Below, piece after piece: positions 3,129 through 40,321 of a stretch of 64,000 bases of DNA; the first letter of the stretch is position 1; every line of letters begins with the position of its first letter. The translations under genes and the position numbers were made by a program. The notes under the pieces were generated by a model. That model saw only the letters and a list, made by a program, of their open reading frames with translations. It ran no database searches and was not told where the DNA came from. Source of the stretch: Neobacillus sp. FSL H8-0543 (GTDB taxonomy: Bacteria; Bacillota; Bacilli; Bacillales; Cytobacillaceae); the NCBI RefSeq assembly GCF_038592905.1, contig NZ_CP151943.1, forward strand, positions 2,048,501 through 2,112,500, in the 5' to 3' direction.

Positions 3129-4349
3129 TTGAAAAAGAAACTATACTCTATCATTCTTGTGTTCACAATTTTATTAACGGCTTGCGGAGAAGGCGAAACC
3201 AATACGGCAAAAGAAGGAGAAATACGTGGTACCTCTTACACAGATGCAGGTGAAGTCAGCGACAGCAAATGGACACAATTTGATGACCTTAATAAAGAAC
3301 TAAAATGGGGACTGACTCCTAACGAAGCGGAAGGAGTCATGGAACAAACTGGTTTTTCACGCATATATGCTTATTCGGATCAAGATGATGTCTATTATGG
3401 AAATTACCTATTAAGTCACGATACAGATGATAACCTTTATCTTCATTATGAAGGAACAGTAAGAGGAGTCCCAGTTGCAATATCATTACATTTTACTGGG
3501 AAAGTTTATTTGCAAGAGGTTCAGTACATTTTTTCCGATGAAGTGATCAATTGGCAGAGTGATGATGAGAGAGGGACATTTATAAAAGAAGTTTTTAATC
3601 ATTTTGGTGAATGTAGTAATCTGGAATCTTGCACATGGGATTCTGACGAAGAACAAATTTATTTTTCAGATTCCACTGACAGTTTCTCCATTAGTGGTTT
3701 AGGAAATCTCCCTGATAAAAAAGAAATCGAAAAAAACAAGGAAAAATTTGAAAAACAAACAGGGAAATCCGTTGAAAAAAACGATGCAGAATTCCTTGAA
3801 CACGTTGATATGTATGTGGAAAACGGCATTGAGCAAATTAAGCAACAAAACCATATGACAGATAGCTCTGCTTCTTATACACCTGGGGACTATCCAACAG
3901 CCATAGTAACAGAAATAAACGTACTCCCTGATGAGTTTCCCGAGTTAATGAAGGTAAACCAAGAATATGGTTATTCTAGAGTTGAGTTTTTCCGTTTTGA
4001 CTCTACTAGTGGGAAATGGATCATTTTCTACGAAATTCAACCTATCGAAAATTATAACAATACGGAACCTCTCATGTTTTTGGGAGTAGCTAAATTATCT
4101 GAAGATGGTTTGGATTATCCAATTGTAGGAAAATGGTCAGGCAGTGGAGGATTCTTTAGTTTCCAAATCTTTGGACCTCGCAATGAATCTTTCGGGATAG
4201 CTTTAGATAAAATCGATGAGGCTTACCCAGCTGGACATTTAGAAATTAATAATAATAATAAAAAGGTTCATATTTTGTCTGAAGGACAAGTGGTTGAAAC
4301 CATTACAGAAAATGAACTAGAATTTAAAAACGTAGGCATGCTCTACTAA
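3129..4349 (+). CDS. Lipoprotein of unknown function
   Basis: A 406-residue protein beginning with a lipoprotein signal peptide; the lipobox is LLTAC with Cys19 as the lipidated residue, so it is anchored to the outer face of the membrane. The mature part is acidic, with no further membrane segment. A Lys/Glu-rich linker (about residues 195-225) separates two beta-rich halves. I do not recognise a catalytic family. TTG start at 3129 with AGGAGG at 3118-3123. It stands alone. Confidence 0.8.
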   Translation: MKKKLYSIILVFTILLTACGEGETNTAKEGEIRGTSYTDAGEVSDSKWTQFDDLNKELKWGLTPNEAEGVMEQTGFSRIYAYSDQDDVYYGNYLLSHDTDDNLYLHYEGTVRGVPVAISLHFTGKVYLQEVQYIFSDEVINWQSDDERGTFIKEVFNHFGECSNLESCTWDSDEEQIYFSDSTDSFSISGLGNLPDKKEIEKNKEKFEKQTGKSVEKNDAEFLEHVDMYVENGIEQIKQQNHMTDSSASYTPGDYPTAIVTEINVLPDEFPELMKVNQEYGYSRVEFFRFDSTSGKWIIFYEIQPIENYNNTEPLMFLGVAKLSEDGLDYPIVGKWSGSGGFFSFQIFGPRNESFGIALDKIDEAYPAGHLEINNNNKKVHILSEGQVVETITENELEFKNVGMLY

Positions 4350-16468: not shown

Positions 16469-16603
16469 AAAAAAATTCCTCCTTTTATATATATAATTGA
16501 TACTATTAATTAAACAGTTGGTATCACTTACATTATCATTTGAAAAATTTTATATTTAATCCTTTGTTTTATCTCTCACTAACCTGCCCCGTTCGTATTA
16601 TAA

Positions 16604-35414: not shown

Positions 35415-35460
35415 AAGAAAGGGAACACATTCATTTATATATTTATACAACCGTTGCCAT

Positions 35461-35552
35461 CTTGATCTAAAGTAACGGGTGCGTTACTTGAAGATCTGGC
35501 TGCCATTGCGTTGGCCATTTTTTATTGAACTAAAGGCGCAGTTTAGTTTAAG
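35461..35552 (+). repeat. Cassette-border repeat R1
   Basis: About 90 bp: TCTAAAGTAACGGGTGCG left end, inner TGGCTGCCATTGCGTTGGCCA hairpin, right end TGAACTAAAGGCGCAGTTTAG. The two ends are imperfect inverted repeats of each other. Same orientation as R2-R5. Confidence 0.75.
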
Positions 35553-35560
35553 AAGAATAG

Positions 35561-35606
35561 AAAATAAAGAAGATAATTAGCTTATTATAAACAGATTATC
35601 TTCTTC
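35561..35606 (-). terminator. Terminator of ykkCD
   Basis: GAAGATAAT / ATTATCTTC stem with AAAATAAA on the plus strand (TTTATTTT after the stem on the minus strand). Confidence 0.7.
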
Positions 35607-35627
35607 ATCTAAAATTGAAAAATTCCT

Positions 35628-35942
35628 TTATGAAACGAGTTTTAATCCTATTGCTGCACCTAAAACCATTGCTATAAAAACAACTCTTCTCCAGTCTTTT
35701 GATTCACCATATAACACCATTCCTAATATTGCACCACCAGACGCACCAATCCCTGTCCATATTGCATAAGCTGTCCCCATAGGTAGTGATTTCATCGCAT
35801 AAGCTAGAAATATAAAACTTGCTCCAAATCCTAGAATTAATAGAAGTAATGATTGCCAATTCCTGTCTTTATGCAATTTATTTATCATAACAACACCAAA
35901 CATTTCAAATAGTCCTGCTAAGATTAAAGATATCCACGCCAT
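35628..35942 (-). CDS. ykkD: Guanidinium exporter subunit, SMR family
   Basis: 104 residues, four membrane helices, EmrE fold. The essential Glu of helix 1 is Glu13 (AGLFEMFGVVM); LPMGTAYAIWTGIGASGGA is the helix 3 kink region. It closely matches B. subtilis YkkD and pairs with YkkC as a heterodimer. Its ATG overlaps the ykkC stop (TAATG), so the two subunits are translationally coupled. Expression is through the guanidine-I riboswitch upstream of ykkC. Exports guanidinium in exchange for protons. Confidence 0.93.
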   Translation of the reverse strand: MAWISLILAGLFEMFGVVMINKLHKDRNWQSLLLLILGFGASFIFLAYAMKSLPMGTAYAIWTGIGASGGAILGMVLYGESKDWRRVVFIAMVLGAAIGLKLVS

Positions 35943-36283
35943 TAGGAATCAGCTCCTTCCTGGTTTTTGTCTTTTGTAACTAATTTCAAGCCAATTACTC
36001 CTGCTAATAAAAGTAAAATCAAGAGTACTTTTTCCACTTTAAATGGTTCTCCAAAGAATAGGATTTCTGAAAAGATAGTTCCTGCTGTACCTAGACCAAC
36101 AAAAACTGCATATACAGTTCCCACGGGAAGTTTTCGTCCTGCCATAATCATTACATAGAAGCTGATGATGATAGCAATAACAGTTCCAGCCCAAGTCCAA
36201 AAGTCATCCGCGTGTTTCAATCCAATAACCCAAAATACTTCAAAAAAAGCAGCAACAAATACTTTAATCCAGTCTTTATTCAT
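35942..36283 (-). CDS. ykkC: Guanidinium exporter subunit, SMR family
   Basis: 113 residues, four membrane helices. Helix 1 Glu14 in [34 protein letters not shown] in helix 3, and the characteristic C-terminal [11 protein letters not shown] all match YkkC. ATG preceded by TTGGAGGTATC. It is downstream of a guanidine-I riboswitch, which fixes the role as a guanidinium (Gdx) exporter rather than a general drug pump. Confidence 0.94.
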
Positions 36284-36321
36284 CTAAAAGATACCTCCAA
36301 TTTTATTCTTACCAAAAAAAA

Positions 36322-36446
36322 ACAAAAAAAAGCCTAAGAGATAACTGTTAAACAGTTTCTCCCAGGCTTTTATCCTTCCGTGACACAGCAAAGCTGTGAG
36401 TTTTCTCTCGGACCAGACCAACAATAAGTTACGGAACCCTAGAAAA
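36322..36446 (-). ncRNA. Guanidine-I riboswitch (ykkC leader) with terminator
   Basis: On the minus strand the conserved blocks appear in order: CTAGGGTTCCG, TGGTCTGGTCCGAGAGAAAA, ACGGAAGGATAAAAGCCTGG and GAGA, followed by a terminator whose arms AAGCCTGGGAGAAACTG / CAGTTATCTCTTAGGCTT lead into TTTTTTTT (36322-36372). The 3' aptamer strand overlaps the terminator arm, giving an ON switch: guanidinium binding prevents termination. Confidence 0.93.
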
Positions 36447-36550
36447 CATTTAAATTATACAATTACTTATATTCTACATACATCTCATATTATTTCAAGA
36501 GTTAAATTTTAGCAAAGTCTTTGGTGGTTGATAAGATTGTGAAGGAATGC

Positions 36551-36640
36551 ACTTAAACTAAAGGGAGCGATACTTGAGGAACCAGCTGCCATTTTGGTGG
36601 CTTATCTTATTGTGCTAACGGTGCAGGTTAGTTAATTTAG
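36551..36640 (+). repeat. Cassette-border repeat R2
   Basis: ACTTAAACTAAAGGGAGCG left end, inner CCAGCTGCCATTTTGGTGG hairpin, right end GTGCTAACGGTGCAGGTTAG. The best-preserved copy; preceded by GATTGTGAAGGA as in R4. Confidence 0.75.
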
Positions 36641-36769
36641 AGATAAAAGCCTTATTACAGTAATGGTTATTTTTGGAGTTGTGCAAATAGTGTATGTTAT
36701 TATTTTGGTAAGAAAAATAATTAAATTACTACATTTCAGCGTAATAACATGAAATAAGGTGGTGGAAAA

Positions 36770-37315
36770 ATGGATAATCAAATAAAATTGGCATTTGAAA
36801 AATCAAAATCGGGCGATAAAGATGAGAGTTATGAAGCCTATCAAAATATTTTAAATGCAACTGATCAACAAGTTGATTGGGCTTACGAGGTATGGAATCA
36901 ACTAATAGAGGACTTAACTCATAAAGATAACCATCAACGCTCTCGTGCAGCACAATATTTAGCCAATCTAGCTAAAAGCGACCCAGAGATGAGAATTATG
37001 AAAGATTTCCCTAAATTGTGGGAGGTAACAAAAGATGAAAAGTTTGTTACGGCTAGACATAGTCTCCAATCTATATGGAAAGTCGGAATTGCAGGTACAG
37101 CCCAAAAAGAAATGGTTATGGAGTTTATGGTTGAACGCTTTAAAAAATGTGCAGATGAAAAGAATTTTACTTTAATTCGTAATGACATTATTCAAAACAT
37201 GAAAAATTTATATGACTATTTCAATGATGAGTTTATTAAACAAACGGCTCTGGATTTAATTGATACGGTTGACGACAAAAAATACAAAAAAAAATATATG
37301 GATATATGGAAGTAG
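36770..37315 (+). CDS. All-helical hypothetical protein (HEAT-like)
   Basis: 181 residues predicted wholly helical, charged, no membrane segment or signal. Segments such as WAYEVWNQLIEDLTHKDNHQ, SRAAQYLANLAKSDPEMR and ARHSLQSIWKVGIAG look like a HEAT-type helical-repeat solenoid; the rest is coil-like. ATG with AAGGTGGTGGA upstream. It has its own 20-bp-stem terminator and sits between repeats R2 and R3. Function unknown; helical-repeat proteins mostly bind other proteins. Confidence 0.7.
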   Translation: MDNQIKLAFEKSKSGDKDESYEAYQNILNATDQQVDWAYEVWNQLIEDLTHKDNHQRSRAAQYLANLAKSDPEMRIMKDFPKLWEVTKDEKFVTARHSLQSIWKVGIAGTAQKEMVMEFMVERFKKCADEKNFTLIRNDIIQNMKNLYDYFNDEFIKQTALDLIDTVDDKKYKKKYMDIWK

Positions 37316-37326
37316 TTTAACTATTT

Positions 37327-37374
37327 AAAGATTATAAAGCTGAAGATATGAGTGTCTTCAGCTTTATAATCTTT
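37327..37374. terminator. Strong bidirectional terminator
   Basis: Perfect 20-bp stem AAAGATTATAAAGCTGAAGA and its complement around an 8-base loop. Confidence 0.85.
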
Positions 37375-37480
37375 ATTCTAGTTGTAATATACTTTTTTAA
37401 AATACAGATCTATTTATTGAATAGTACATGGATATTACTCATGCAACAACTACTTTTTCGCTACTTTGTGAAATTATACA

Positions 37481-37560
37481 CTTAAAGTAACGGGTGCAAT
37501 AGTTGAAAATAAGGGTTGCTATGATCTTCCACAATCGGGCCATTTTGTTAGATTAATAAA
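37481..37560 (+). repeat. Cassette-border repeat R3
   Basis: Left end CTTAAAGTAACGGGTGCAAT well kept; inner arms GGGTTGCTATG / GGGCCATTTTG poorly paired; right end decayed (TGTTAGATTAATAA). Confidence 0.65.
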
Positions 37561-37620
37561 TAATTTTATGAATGATACTAGAAATAAAGTTTTCCCTGAA
37601 TAGTGAGGTGAATAGAGAAA

Positions 37621-38043
37621 ATGTATGAAGAATATAGTAGACAATCTTTACCGTCAAGGAAGTATAGAGAATTGTTAGGAAGTGCAATCTGTGTTTTCAA
37701 CTCTAACAATGCATTTATCATTGAAAATATACTTAGAAATGATGAGAATAACAGGTTTCATTGGCACGAATTAATTGATTATACTTCAGGTGAACTTAGT
37801 CAACCAATAAAGGAAACTATAACTAAGTTTTCAGATACAAAAATTACTTCTCGGTTTTCTGAAGTTATTGAAATGAGGAATAGAATTATTCACAGTTTTC
37901 AAATAACTGATGATGGTAAACAGACTTTAGCTACAAAACGTAAGAACGGAGAACAGTTTATTATTACAGAGGATTACCTGTATAATTTTATTAAAAAGAA
38001 CGAAGAATTAAGTGTCCTCCTTCATGAATTTAGAGGTTATTAG
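37621..38043 (+). CDS. HEPN-like domain protein (possible RNase)
   Basis: 140 residues, mostly helical. It carries EMRNRIIHSF, an R-x4-H arrangement in the position and context typical of HEPN ribonucleases, which cut RNA in toxin-antitoxin and abortive-infection systems. Upstream helices (KYRELLGSAICVFNSNNAFI, WHELIDYTSGELS) fit the HEPN four-helix bundle. No antitoxin (MNT nucleotidyltransferase) gene is next to it. ATG with GAGGTGA 11 bases upstream. Own terminator at 38054-38091; lies between R3 and R4. Confidence 0.6.
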   Translation: MYEEYSRQSLPSRKYRELLGSAICVFNSNNAFIIENILRNDENNRFHWHELIDYTSGELSQPIKETITKFSDTKITSRFSEVIEMRNRIIHSFQITDDGKQTLATKRKNGEQFIITEDYLYNFIKKNEELSVLLHEFRGY

Positions 38044-38053
38044 TTCTATCAAG

Positions 38054-38091
38054 AAAAGGGCGCCTTTCTTGAATAAGAAGGCGTCTCTTTC
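38054..38091 (+). terminator. Terminator of the HEPN-like gene
   Basis: GGCGCCTTTCTT / AAGAAGGCGTC stem followed by TCTTTCT. Confidence 0.7.
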
Positions 38092-38166
38092 TAATCAATC
38101 AGATTTTGCAGCAACAAAATTAAATTGGAGTTATTTTAAGTTGTAGAAGAGATTGTGAAGGATTCT

Positions 38167-38220
38167 ACTTAAACTATCGGGTGCGTTTACTTAATAAGCA
38201 AAACGGGTCCATAATAAAAT
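38167..38220 (+). repeat. Cassette-border repeat R4 (truncated)
   Basis: ACTTAAACTATCGGGTGCG left end with the upstream GATTGTGAAGGATTCT shared with R2; the right half is lost. Confidence 0.6.
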
Positions 38221-38308
38221 TTGCATTTTGCATTCTCAAAAGGAAAAATACCGGTAGGCTATAACTTTTACGTTGAAACTTTATTGGCTTTATCAATTAG
38301 GAGGCAAT

Positions 38309-38461
38309 ATGAGTGTAGGTAAACAGATAATATTAAGTTTATCAATATATGCAGTATCCGCAGTAATAATAGGTGGGTTACTTTGGTATTTTAATCCTTC
38401 TCTAAATGAATATCTTAAGAGTGCAATTACTGCTTCTCCTATTTTAATATCCCTTGATTAA
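38309..38461 (+). CDS. Single-span small membrane protein
   Basis: 50 residues: MSVGKQIILSLSIYAVSAVI then a membrane segment ending in LLWYFNP. The ATG at 38309 follows AGGAGG by 5 bases, so the longer ORF from 38273 is not used. Unknown function; between R4 and R5. Confidence 0.55.
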   Translation: MSVGKQIILSLSIYAVSAVIIGGLLWYFNPSLNEYLKSAITASPILISLD

Positions 38462-38520
38462 AACAAAACACGATGATTAATATCAGGATGACTTCCTTGT
38501 TAACTAAACAAAAGATAAGG

Positions 38521-38590
38521 TTCTTACTCAGCGAACGGGTGCTTGAGTTTAACAAAGAGTCGCAGCTGCGGCTCTTTGTTAAACTAGAGG
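38521..38590 (+). repeat. Cassette-border repeat R5 with perfect hairpin
   Basis: GCGAACGGGTGCTTGAG left end, then a perfect 18-bp stem AGTTTAACAAAGAGTCGC and its complement (38546-38585). Here the inner hairpin is much stronger than in R1-R4 and could terminate transcription. Confidence 0.65.
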
Positions 38591-38668
38591 TTGAGACGTT
38601 TTAAGATTCTAAGGTAATTGAAATTTAAGGGATGTGAAACCGTTCAATCCTTTCATTATCCACCGTTT

Positions 38669-38917
38669 TTATTCATTTTTCTTTTTGGATTCAATCATAT
38701 ACCTTAGTGCAACAACATAATTTTTTACAGAGTTTTTCTTATACTGTCTTTCAATCTCAGCTAGCATAGTAGCGGTAATGGTGGATTCTCCATTGTATAT
38801 TCCTCTATTAATAAGACCGTTACCACGCCCAATATAATCTTTAATCGAGCTTTCCCCCAACTTACATACCTGCCTTAAAAACTTTTCATATTTCATTAAA
38901 AACTCTTGAATATTCAT
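38669..38917 (-). CDS. Small soluble hypothetical protein
   Basis: 82 residues, helical, basic C-terminus (NIQEFLMKYEKFLRQVC, STITATMLAEIERQYKKNS, ALRYMIESKKKNE). ATG at 38917 with TAGGAG about 12 bases upstream; a TTG four codons earlier is too close to that site. No family recognised. Next to R5, so it may be the last member of the cassette-like region, on the opposite strand. Confidence 0.5.
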   Translation of the reverse strand: MNIQEFLMKYEKFLRQVCKLGESSIKDYIGRGNGLINRGIYNGESTITATMLAEIERQYKKNSVKNYVVALRYMIESKKKNE

Positions 38918-38929
38918 TTTTAAGCTCAA

Positions 38930-39480
38930 CTCCTATCATTGATTTAATGTTAAATATATCTCTTTTCCACACTAAAAATACCCCACTGGGCTATAACATA
39001 TCCCATCAGTGGATAGAAGCATAGCGGCAAGACTGTCTATCTGTGTTCCTGCTCTGTACTCGCCAAACGGGACTCCACCCTTCCCTATATAACTATGAAG
39101 GGAAACAACCGCATCCAGAACACAAAAAAGGAACTGACTATCCTGCGTATCTTCTTGTTTTCGCAAACTCTGTATTGTTAAGAAATGTACGTAAAGTATA
39201 TGGGGGCGTTTGTGGAAAATCATAAGCCTAATTTCTCGCTAAAAATACGGAGGAATTAAGCTTTTTTATGTTTTTAGAACCTTAACGTTGTAAATGCAGT
39301 TTCCTGAAATTACCCCATTGGTTAACACGATGGCTACAAGTGGTAAATCCCATGGCAAGCCCTGGTAAAAAAGGTGGCAGAAGCGGTACATTCTTATGGC
39401 TGTAATCATCCTGGTCCCTCTAAACTATTTTTTCTCCCAACCTGTCCTTTTCACCTACTTTTATGTATATAGAAGGTGAA
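38930..39480. other. Gene-poor stretch before the DUF1659 gene
   Basis: No gene I can support. A short plus-strand stretch ending NHKPNFSLKIRRN (to about 39256) may be a gene tail. At 39446-39483 the arms CCTTTTCACCT / AGGTGAAAGG form a hairpin that reaches into the ribosome site of the next gene. Confidence 0.4.
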
Positions 39481-39494
39481 AGGAGGTGATTGAA

Positions 39495-39713
39495 ATGGCA
39501 GAAACACTTTTAGCAGAGTCGAAGCTGCGTTTGGTTTTCCAGGCAGGGATTGATGAAGATGGCAAGCCAATCCTAAAAGCCAAGACCTTTGGAAACGTCA
39601 ACAAAGCAGTAACAGCGGATCAGCTTTACCAGGTTACACAGGCAGTCGTTAGTTTATCTGGCGACGAACTTAGCGGCGCGCAACGTATGGACAGCTTGGA
39701 TCTTTTAGCGTAA
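39495..39713 (+). CDS. DUF1659 family protein
   Basis: 72 residues matching the small Bacillus DUF1659 family (LVFQAGIDEDGKPILKAKTF, NVNKAVTADQLYQV). Function unknown, always in a conserved trio with a DUF2922 gene and yvrJ, as here. The ATG at 39495 follows GGAGGTGATTGAA; the GTG three codons earlier is inside the ribosome site. First gene of the operon; a hairpin overlaps its ribosome site. Confidence 0.9.
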   Translation: MAETLLAESKLRLVFQAGIDEDGKPILKAKTFGNVNKAVTADQLYQVTQAVVSLSGDELSGAQRMDSLDLLA

Positions 39714-39750
39714 TGGTAGAAAAAATCTCAAATGATAGGAGGTGAACAAA

Positions 39751-39969
39751 ATGGCAAAAACACTAGAATTGCAGTTTGTGACCGAGGGTGGGAACAACGC
39801 TAGACTTACAGTGGATAACCCGAAGGAACCGATTGAGGAAGCTGTCGTTAAACAAGCGATGGAAGCGATTATCGCAGCTGAAGTATTCTTCACATCAGGA
39901 GGTAAATTCGTCACTGCCAAAGGAGCACGTGTCATCGAACGCAACGTAACCGATTATGAACTTGTTTAA
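39751..39969 (+). CDS. DUF2922 family protein
   Basis: 72 residues, DUF2922: AKTLELQFVTEGGNNARLTV, DNPKEPIEEAVVKQAMEAII, FFTSGGKFVTAKGARVIER. Partner of DUF1659. ATG after GGAGGTGAACAAA. Followed by a hairpin (GAGGCCGG / CCGGTCTC, 39978-40008), then the inserted 215-bp element, then yvrJ. Confidence 0.9.
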   Translation: MAKTLELQFVTEGGNNARLTVDNPKEPIEEAVVKQAMEAIIAAEVFFTSGGKFVTAKGARVIERNVTDYELV

Positions 39970-40057
39970 TAAAGTTAGAGGCCGGATTCAGCGATGGAGC
40001 CGGTCTCTTTCTACAATAAAGGCTCTGTTATTATTCATTGTTGATTTTCGTTTAGGG

Positions 40058-40285
40058 ATGAGAATTCATAAGCGGAGAATTTCCGGCTAATGTATATAGA
40101 GGAAGCTTAAGAGACAGATATAAGCGGAGATATTCCGATTAACTCCTCTAAATAAGACAAAATCCAAATATTTTGATAATATAACCGGAAAAACTTCCTC
40201 TATTTTAAAGGAAATATGGGTATTTCCCAATTTAAACGGAATTTTACCGCTTATTTTCAAATGTAGTGAAATCAACATTCAGTCA
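40058..40285 (-). repeat. 215-bp TTCCG-rich element, third copy
   Basis: Same sequence and orientation as 13899-14125 (AAGCGGAGAATTTCCGGC, AAGCGGAGATATTCCG, GGAAATATGGGTATTTCCC, CGGAATTTTACCGC). It lies between DUF2922 and yvrJ; the duplicated yvrJ segment at 4.7 kb lacks it, which marks it as an insertion. Confidence 0.8.
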
Positions 40286-40321
40286 TAACAGAGTTAAAAT
40301 AAAAGAAAGGAGAAAAAACAT

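Follow-up and report, generated by a model that had tools for sequence, protein, structure and literature searches.

The window discussed here, a stretch of 64,000 nucleotides from Neobacillus sp. FSL H8-0543 (contig NZ_CP151943.1, positions 2,048,501 to 2,112,500), contains between its positions 35466 and 38590 five copies of a border repeat, all on the + strand, that set off a series of small genes. An earlier note made from these letters had listed five such repeats, and they are present far beyond chance: with up to two mismatches allowed, the pattern AACTAACGGGTGC matches eight times in the 64-kb window against 0.84 expected, none of 100 shuffles reaches eight, and five of the eight matches are the repeat copies (an additional match at 38055 is not a copy). 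From the sites, their arrays, the linkage to an enzyme and the exchange of single units at core sites, all read from sequence, the repeats appear to be recombination sites of a widespread single-gene cassette system whose activity we infer, and the region is probably a small array of mobile gene cassettes belonging to a Bacillales-wide system with a XerA-like enzyme and dif-like double-stranded sites.

Organisation of the array

A full border consists, in order, of a site L, a terminator hairpin and a site R, with a core-to-core terminator unit of about 60 nt. As derived from 37 full copies, site L reads CTTAAACTAAC-GGGTGC-right arm and has an 11-6-11 layout, and site R reads CTTnTTnAACTAAC-GG(G)GCAG-GTTAGTTGAAGAAG, or in its short form ..AACTAAC-GG(G)GCAG-GTTAGTTGAAG, with arms around a 6-7 bp spacer in the aligned copies, the arm length being read from the dyad. 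Position weight matrices for L and R were built from the same 37 copies, which include window copies 1 and 2, and four of which recur in two (L042 and L051) of the 78 recombinase loci described below.

The array begins with core site L1 (35466..35493, +; left arm TCTAAAGTAAC, spacer GGGTGC from 35477, right arm GTTACTTGAAG; 32.4 bits), and between the cores of L1 and R1 lies terminator unit T1 (35477..35534, +), assigned from sequence and laid out as in 229 L-to-R units of 45-80 nt. Core site R1 (35524..35552, +; core 35535; 38.5 bits with the R matrix) is followed by gene unit A (35535..36562), a ykkCD-type small multidrug resistance (SMR) pair with a guanidine-I riboswitch, transcribed against the array as the earlier note had recognised: a ykkD-like SMR efflux subunit of 104 residues (35628..35942, -; Pfam Multi_Drug_Res, E 1.2e-27), a ykkC-like subunit of 113 residues (35942..36283, -; same family, E 3.8e-21) and the riboswitch (36357..36453, -; Rfam RF00442, 83.4 bits). 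Core site L2 (36552..36579, +; core 36563; 36.0 bits), terminator unit T2 (36563..36619, +; from sequence) and core site R2 (36609..36637, +; core 36620; 40.9 bits) lead to gene unit B (36620..37491, +), which has a helical open reading frame (ORF) of 181 residues (36770-37315). Core site L3 (37481..37508, +; core 37492; 43.1 bits) opens gene unit C (37492..38178, +), whose 140-residue ORF (37621-38043) carries an RNRIIH motif; the HEPN resemblance proposed for it exists as a weak match, with an E value of 0.009 that is below Pfam's cut-off. Core site L4 (38168..38195, +; core 38179; 28.3 bits) opens gene unit D (38179..38536, +), a one-span membrane ORF of 62 residues (38273-38461), and core site L5 (38526..38553, +; core 38537; 25.0 bits) belongs to the last terminator unit (38537..38590, +), with a hairpin at 38546-38585 (inverted repeat 95%) and a decayed R end at 38589 that scores only 9.8 bits. 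The reversed window, used as a control, gives two matches of at least 8 bits. Copy-to-copy spacings are 1086, 929, 687 and 358 bp, close to the 1090, 920, 690 and 355 bp first estimated. Terminator hairpin and R site are present in two copies, with no clear R half in copies 3-5, and the right end of copy 2 starts GTGCTAAC rather than with the GAACTAA given in the earlier note. A solitary R-type core (26.3 bits) lies at 16590 (-), distant from the array.

Distribution and cargo of related arrays

Border sites of this kind are common in related genomes. With one mismatch allowed, the pattern AAACTAACGGGTGC occurs in up to 69 copies per genome in 30 genomes (our own and 29 relatives), with at least five copies in 12 of 17 same-genus relatives and at most three for the reversed pattern, and the copies are grouped in one-orientation arrays, about 1 kb apart. 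In the 73 of 78 candidate elements that were aligned, the interior of the border varies and the core sites are conserved; a T run lies in the 3' part of 197 of the 229 L-to-R units. Across 1.34 Mb around the 78 recombinase loci, 501 L and 600 R matches reach at least 14 bits, against one and none, respectively, in the reversed sequence.

The wider consensus search recommended in the earlier note was made with an L-terminator-R model that uses sequence only and scores at most about 14 candidates per genome. This model matches 189 of 299 Bacillales genomes, in 79 of 116 genera, and in a class-level sample 45 of 299 genomes, 16 within Bacillales and 29 outside; one strong site family falls outside the order, putatively including Paenisporosarcina sp. 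HGH0030. The linked recombinase (hereafter also integrase) matches at E 1e-80 in 53 of the 299 genomes of the order, and sites are found in 48 of these 53 as against 141 of the 246 others; where the integrase match has at least 73% identity, 22 of 22 genomes have sites, our own with its broken copies included. No R-site match was found in E. coli (20,395 records), and phage records gave seven weak partial matches. After the R cores of several units (L045, L048, L009 and L011) there is a recurring start, GCATTCCTGTAATGA(A/G)TGAAAATG. Sequences that we take to resemble group II intron 5' ends begin at or near cores or terminator units at L025:2648, L123:7053, L015:18008 and L004:1775, to which group IIC introns at attC sites are a parallel.

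Among 676 gene units, 12 that overlap the integrase were skipped, 40 lack an ORF of 60 residues and 624 have ORFs, of which 533 run along the array and 91 against it, with a median length of 156 residues. Scans of 139 of these 624 ORFs returned 80 Pfam families overall, the most frequent being GNAT acetyltransferases (seven), DUF3231 (four) and the SUKH and Imm26 immunity proteins (two each), and four PADLOC families with one member each.

Exchange of single units at core sites

Comparison of the arrays indicates that genomes exchange single units at the core sites. Cutting from core to core yielded 407 RL units (median 642 nt), 401 LR units (median 60 nt), 201 RR and 215 LL units; the short or duplicate loci L001-L008, L015-L017, L032, L036 and L041 were left out of the cutting, the pair comparison and the alignment-end counts. 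Homology over more than 85% of both members links 551 unit pairs from different loci, and 130 of them have at least 80% identity, 48 labelled as cargo and 82 as integrase. Three of the cargo-labelled pairs are actually integrase and one lies at a contig edge, leaving 44 testable pairs from 38 distinct unit families. Neither flank is homologous in 38 of the 44, only the left in three, only the right in two and both in one. This supports the earlier idea that cassettes are collected here as single-gene units set between borders. The integrase-labelled pairs behave similarly (78 with neither flank homologous, three with the right only, one at an edge). As the flank test begins 35 bp outside the unit, a shared 60-bp terminator may escape it, as in L021/L028. 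The longest ORFs of the 38 unit families include no Pfam transposase match and one to reverse transcriptase, so that the pattern is not accounted for by insertion sequences that move themselves.

The same conclusion is suggested by where alignments end, a count that is independent of the unit cutting and uses the labels from before the three cargo pairs were reassigned to integrase: 368 of 775 cargo ends (47%) and 388 of 589 integrase ends (66%) fall within 30 bp of a core, compared with 538 of 6820 random positions (8%). Among the matches listed, alignments stop at TAAC|GGG or within about 20-50 bp of it, inside the shared repeat. Differences between genomes fall at the borders, contrary to what the earlier note had expected of a transposable element or plain terminators. 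One 393-bp unit is 98.0-99.5% identical across Gracilibacillus, Virgibacillus and Paucisalibacillus, and gene units recur beside different terminators. Identical terminator interiors at more than one place are rare (seven sequences among 229 units), so that movement of terminators on their own is at most putative.

Three of the four gene units of the window, A, B and D, are likewise found elsewhere, each with different neighbours. Unit A (window 35514-36478) has an 86% identical counterpart in Psychrobacillus sp. NEAU-3TGS (L090, 3640-4610), where the riboswitch scores 84.2 bits; this match starts at the R1 core but leaves the last 85 bp before the L2 core uncovered. The matches of unit B (36537-37510) to N. 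niacini AT2.8 (L019, 5090-6051, 89% identity) and of unit D (38166-38548) to a second array of our own genome (L031, 15623-16032, 86% identity) stop at the cores. Unit C has no tblastn match among the array loci collected for comparison.

A clean insertion is seen in Neobacillus sp. DY30, which has two integrase platforms with recombinase units that are 92% similar. One platform has an extra 1269 bp, bounded by cores, between the R site on the recombinase side and a segment that is 99% identical in both; in the other, L048, that R site is below threshold yet readable. The spacer travels with the right-hand unit, so this crossover falls on the left side of the spacer, at its edge. A count of spacer types over the unit pairs was too crude to locate the crossover, and the DY30 pair served instead.

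A XerA-like recombinase linked to the arrays

The earlier note had seen no IntI and advised a search for a linked tyrosine recombinase. The absence of IntI stands; such a gene nonetheless lies inside the arrays of relatives, with broken copies in our own genome. Pfam PF00589 matches within arrays led to a tyrosine recombinase of 281 residues (L016:4488-5333, minus strand), a member of a XerA-like family of about 280 residues. The best curated families are XerA (NF040815, 210 bits, cut-off 220), XerD (196 bits) and XerC (195 bits); the integron integrase model TIGR02249 gives 93 bits against a cut-off of 265. The R/H/R/H/Y motif residues, which act in catalysis, are R139, H229, R232, H255 and Y264 in alignment A1 and are invariant in 15 aligned sequences. 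IntI1 of R388 is 26% identical, and its 42-residue stretch at residue 195 is absent from the array-linked enzyme. In a 28-row tree the recombinase family holds together (support 90/98), with two XerA proteins as its nearest neighbours (88/91) and a further two XerA-like proteins next to these (92/96), one of the latter from our own genome. These values are moderate, the tree has a root for drawing purposes only, and IntI1 sits on a very long branch. An AlphaFold2 model was too poor to use (mean predicted local distance difference test 66, predicted template modelling score 0.41).

Scanning a collection of species genomes gave 499 relatives, and the best 80 matches define 78 loci spanning many Bacillaceae and Planococcaceae genera. 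Around these loci, 957 of 974 site matches (about 98%) lie on the strand opposite to the integrase, a count that excludes palindromic twins and in which a single core may match both matrices. Sites often flank the integrase gene itself, at about 67 bp past the stop codon for L and about 76 bp ahead of the start codon for R. Of the 78 loci, 50 have an L no more than 140 bp from the stop, 41 have an R no more than 160 bp from the start, and 30 have both.

In our own genome, which has further site arrays outside the window, copies of the recombinase occur in four places and all are interrupted or partial; scans with Pfam PF00589 and with the integrase revealed no intact member of the array-linked family there. 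The window array is small and probably decaying, and it looks like a remnant that has no working enzyme of its own. Its left-hand gene is present only in this genome among 61 genomes of the genus, so that an empty locus cannot be demonstrated. Just beyond the array, 39416-40018 holds two small genes, each of 75 residues, and the matches listed for them include near-identical copies (94-96%) at positions 2025451 and 2129169 of G000:C1. The stretch 40020-40293 is part of a dispersed repeat (about 83-94% identity), on which most of the matches listed in the genus search fall; many of the 61 genomes have it more than once or twice.

Resistance genes between core sites on plasmids

Oligonucleotides of the site consensus match plasmid records as well, at least 80 for R and 51 for L, and two known resistance genes, cat of pC194 and staphylococcal dfrK, sit between sites of the same kind. 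The pC194 cat gene (1260-1907) lies between an R (1970, 37 bits) and an L (1098, 33 bits) on the other strand. The dfrK gene of pKKS627 is enclosed by two R cores, at 2449 and 3015 (26 and 49 bits), and a MazG ORF is enclosed by an R at 3392 and an L at 3861 (27 and 25 bits), all in L120 positions; reversed controls for the plasmid sites stay below 2 bits. Plasmid pKKS966 has the dfrK segment of pKKS627 at 98% identity without a 511-bp stretch that runs from core 3350 to core 3861. The matches on either side of the missing stretch abut, and the common dfrK region of the two plasmids differs by this one core-to-core piece. The apmA gene of pKKS49, suspected to be another cassette, is not bracketed: no site there reaches 10 bits. 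The Klebsiella grimontii plasmid pNY3A (CP079755.1; L122, 3015-3641) has one site-bracketed hypothetical gene, in a gammaproteobacterial setting. Primers for cat that cover the cores appear, in the relevant passages of PMC2440758 and PMC4403831, as plain primers.

Discussion

We propose that each border is a double-stranded dif-like site in which a spacer of 6-7 bp separates arms of about 11 bp each, L and R being two kinds of site with the spacers GGGTGC and GG(G)GCAG, and that strands of two such sites would be exchanged at their TAAC|GGG edge by a dedicated XerA-like tyrosine recombinase. Core-to-core units, which may hold a gene, the recombinase or a terminator of some 60 bp, would be excised, presumably as circular intermediates, and re-inserted in one fixed orientation. 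The likely entry point is the R site that immediately precedes the recombinase gene. Recombination on double-stranded rather than folded DNA is favoured by the 11-6-11 layout of L together with the Xer-type enzyme. Several observations weigh against this proposal. Of 246 genomes that lack the integrase, 141 nevertheless have sites, and at a threshold of 14 bits no L is near the integrase in 28 of 78 loci and no R in 37, although six site-poor loci come to within 200 bp of the end of their contig and some sites have decayed below 14 bits, as in L048. A second subfamily of the integrase (63-67% identity) is arranged differently; at 11 bits, three of its seven loci have sites on the integrase's own strand and four have none nearby (L143, read alongside it, is subfamily 1). 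Xer enzymes that exchange both strands in full do not usually work with differing spacers such as those of L and R, and together with the one-sided crossover these spacers leave room for single-strand exchange.

Single-strand exchange is central to one alternative, in which the same cassettes would be moved by an enzyme acting on a folded strand, the L-terminator-R hairpin, as IntI acts on attC. The left arm of L and the right arm of R are complementary (mean 7.2 of 11 pairs), the spacers differ, and the spacer moves with one side only in the clean DY30 case, as such a mechanism predicts. The folding check suggested in the earlier note gave no sign of a conserved attC-like structure: over 229 elements the outer stem has 7.223 pairs versus 7.212 after partner shuffling (z 0.20), the inner stem reaches z 1.29, a value attained by 108 of 1000 shuffles, and RNAalifold finds no consensus pair on 73 copies, a weak result in that terminators are missed too. 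Strong conservation of the core sequences and the recurrence of gene units next to different terminators also argue against folding, and we regard this alternative as rather unlikely. Host XerC/XerD (CodV/RipX) might instead move the cassettes as in Acinetobacter dif modules, with the linked XerA-like gene a passenger. The dif-like 11-6-11 geometry of L sites and the many genomes with sites and no linked enzyme would suit this. Against it, the linked gene is core-bounded in many genera, its motif residues are invariant in 15 aligned sequences, and 22 of 22 genomes with close copies have sites; we regard the host-driven scheme as quite improbable.

A true integron, or a cluster of attC sites lacking integrases (CALIN), with a divergent IntI would account for the one-orientation arrays, the small single genes, the hairpin-bearing borders and an integrase that reads against the array. 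The attC/IntI analogy does not, however, extend to membership: the array-linked enzyme is XerA-like, scores 93 bits where TIGR02249 asks for 265, has 26% identity to IntI1 and lacks its 42-residue stretch, no conserved attC-like fold is seen, and none of the 61 genus genomes has an IntI above the TIGR02249 cut-off (one reaches 134 bits), a search in which 14 control genomes also gave none and which hence has no positive control. The scores and the absent stretch refute the borders as attC sites of an IntI integron, and an integron in any divergent form is very improbable. Lastly, the borders could be a miniature inverted-repeat transposable element (MITE) or plain terminators, with gene differences arising from ordinary recombination, and the T runs of the L-to-R units fit a terminator. 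Since the interior is not conserved, only the core sites being so, and the exchanged DNA lies outside the element, a MITE is rejected; terminators alone leave the breaks at cores unexplained. Homology between genomes that lies between sites and tends to stop there, and sites that are about 98% in one orientation, leave this explanation with next to no credence.

The double-stranded cassette system that we prefer is apparently undescribed: no description was found in open-licence PMC papers, a scope with most subscription papers and all preprints outside it. If the proposal is true, Bacillales have a large cassette economy of their own, outside what integron software is built to see, which would provide a ready explanation for the arrays of tiny unrelated genes in these genomes, a testable source of staphylococcal resistance genes and a recombinase with short, defined sites. 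It would also offer a natural example with which to examine why cassette systems have evolved repeatedly.

Comparison with known systems

Like integrons, the arrays consist of small, exchangeable single-gene cassettes in one orientation with hairpin-bearing borders; the integrase is transcribed against the array, entry appears to be beside it, and integrase-free arrays exist too. The R core upstream of the integrase is a candidate counterpart of attI, with one clean insertion there. Unlike integrons, the system has two dif-like core sites in place of one folded attC, carries gene, terminator and integrase in separate core-to-core units, and is linked to a XerA-like enzyme without the IntI insert, which a passage of PMC8138268 describes as needed for integron function; an own XerA-like enzyme probably replaces the integron enzyme here. 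Integrons are reported to be very rare in Firmicutes, where the relevant part of the IntegronFinder 2.0 paper gives one complete integron (Limnochorda pilosa) and a few CALINs (PMC9024848); the present system is common in that phylum. The pdif modules of Acinetobacter, as outlined in part of PMC6449649, are accessory genes flanked by sites of 28 bp with an 11-6-11 layout, and the L sites described here can be read in the same way. The present sites differ from them in being directly oriented, in long arrays and linked to their own recombinase gene. The sites of pdif pairs are reportedly, to judge from a paper's title, inversely oriented; here 957 of 974 matches share one orientation relative to the integrase. 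XerA-type recombinases (NF040815) are the closest curated family to the enzyme, which scores below their cut-off and is located inside cassette arrays. We incline slightly towards a third, independent cassette-capture system, with a XerA-like enzyme, two dif-like sites and separately mobile gene, terminator and recombinase units, which may be a main accessory-gene channel of Bacillaceae and Planococcaceae and the source of the staphylococcal plasmid genes cat (pC194) and dfrK.

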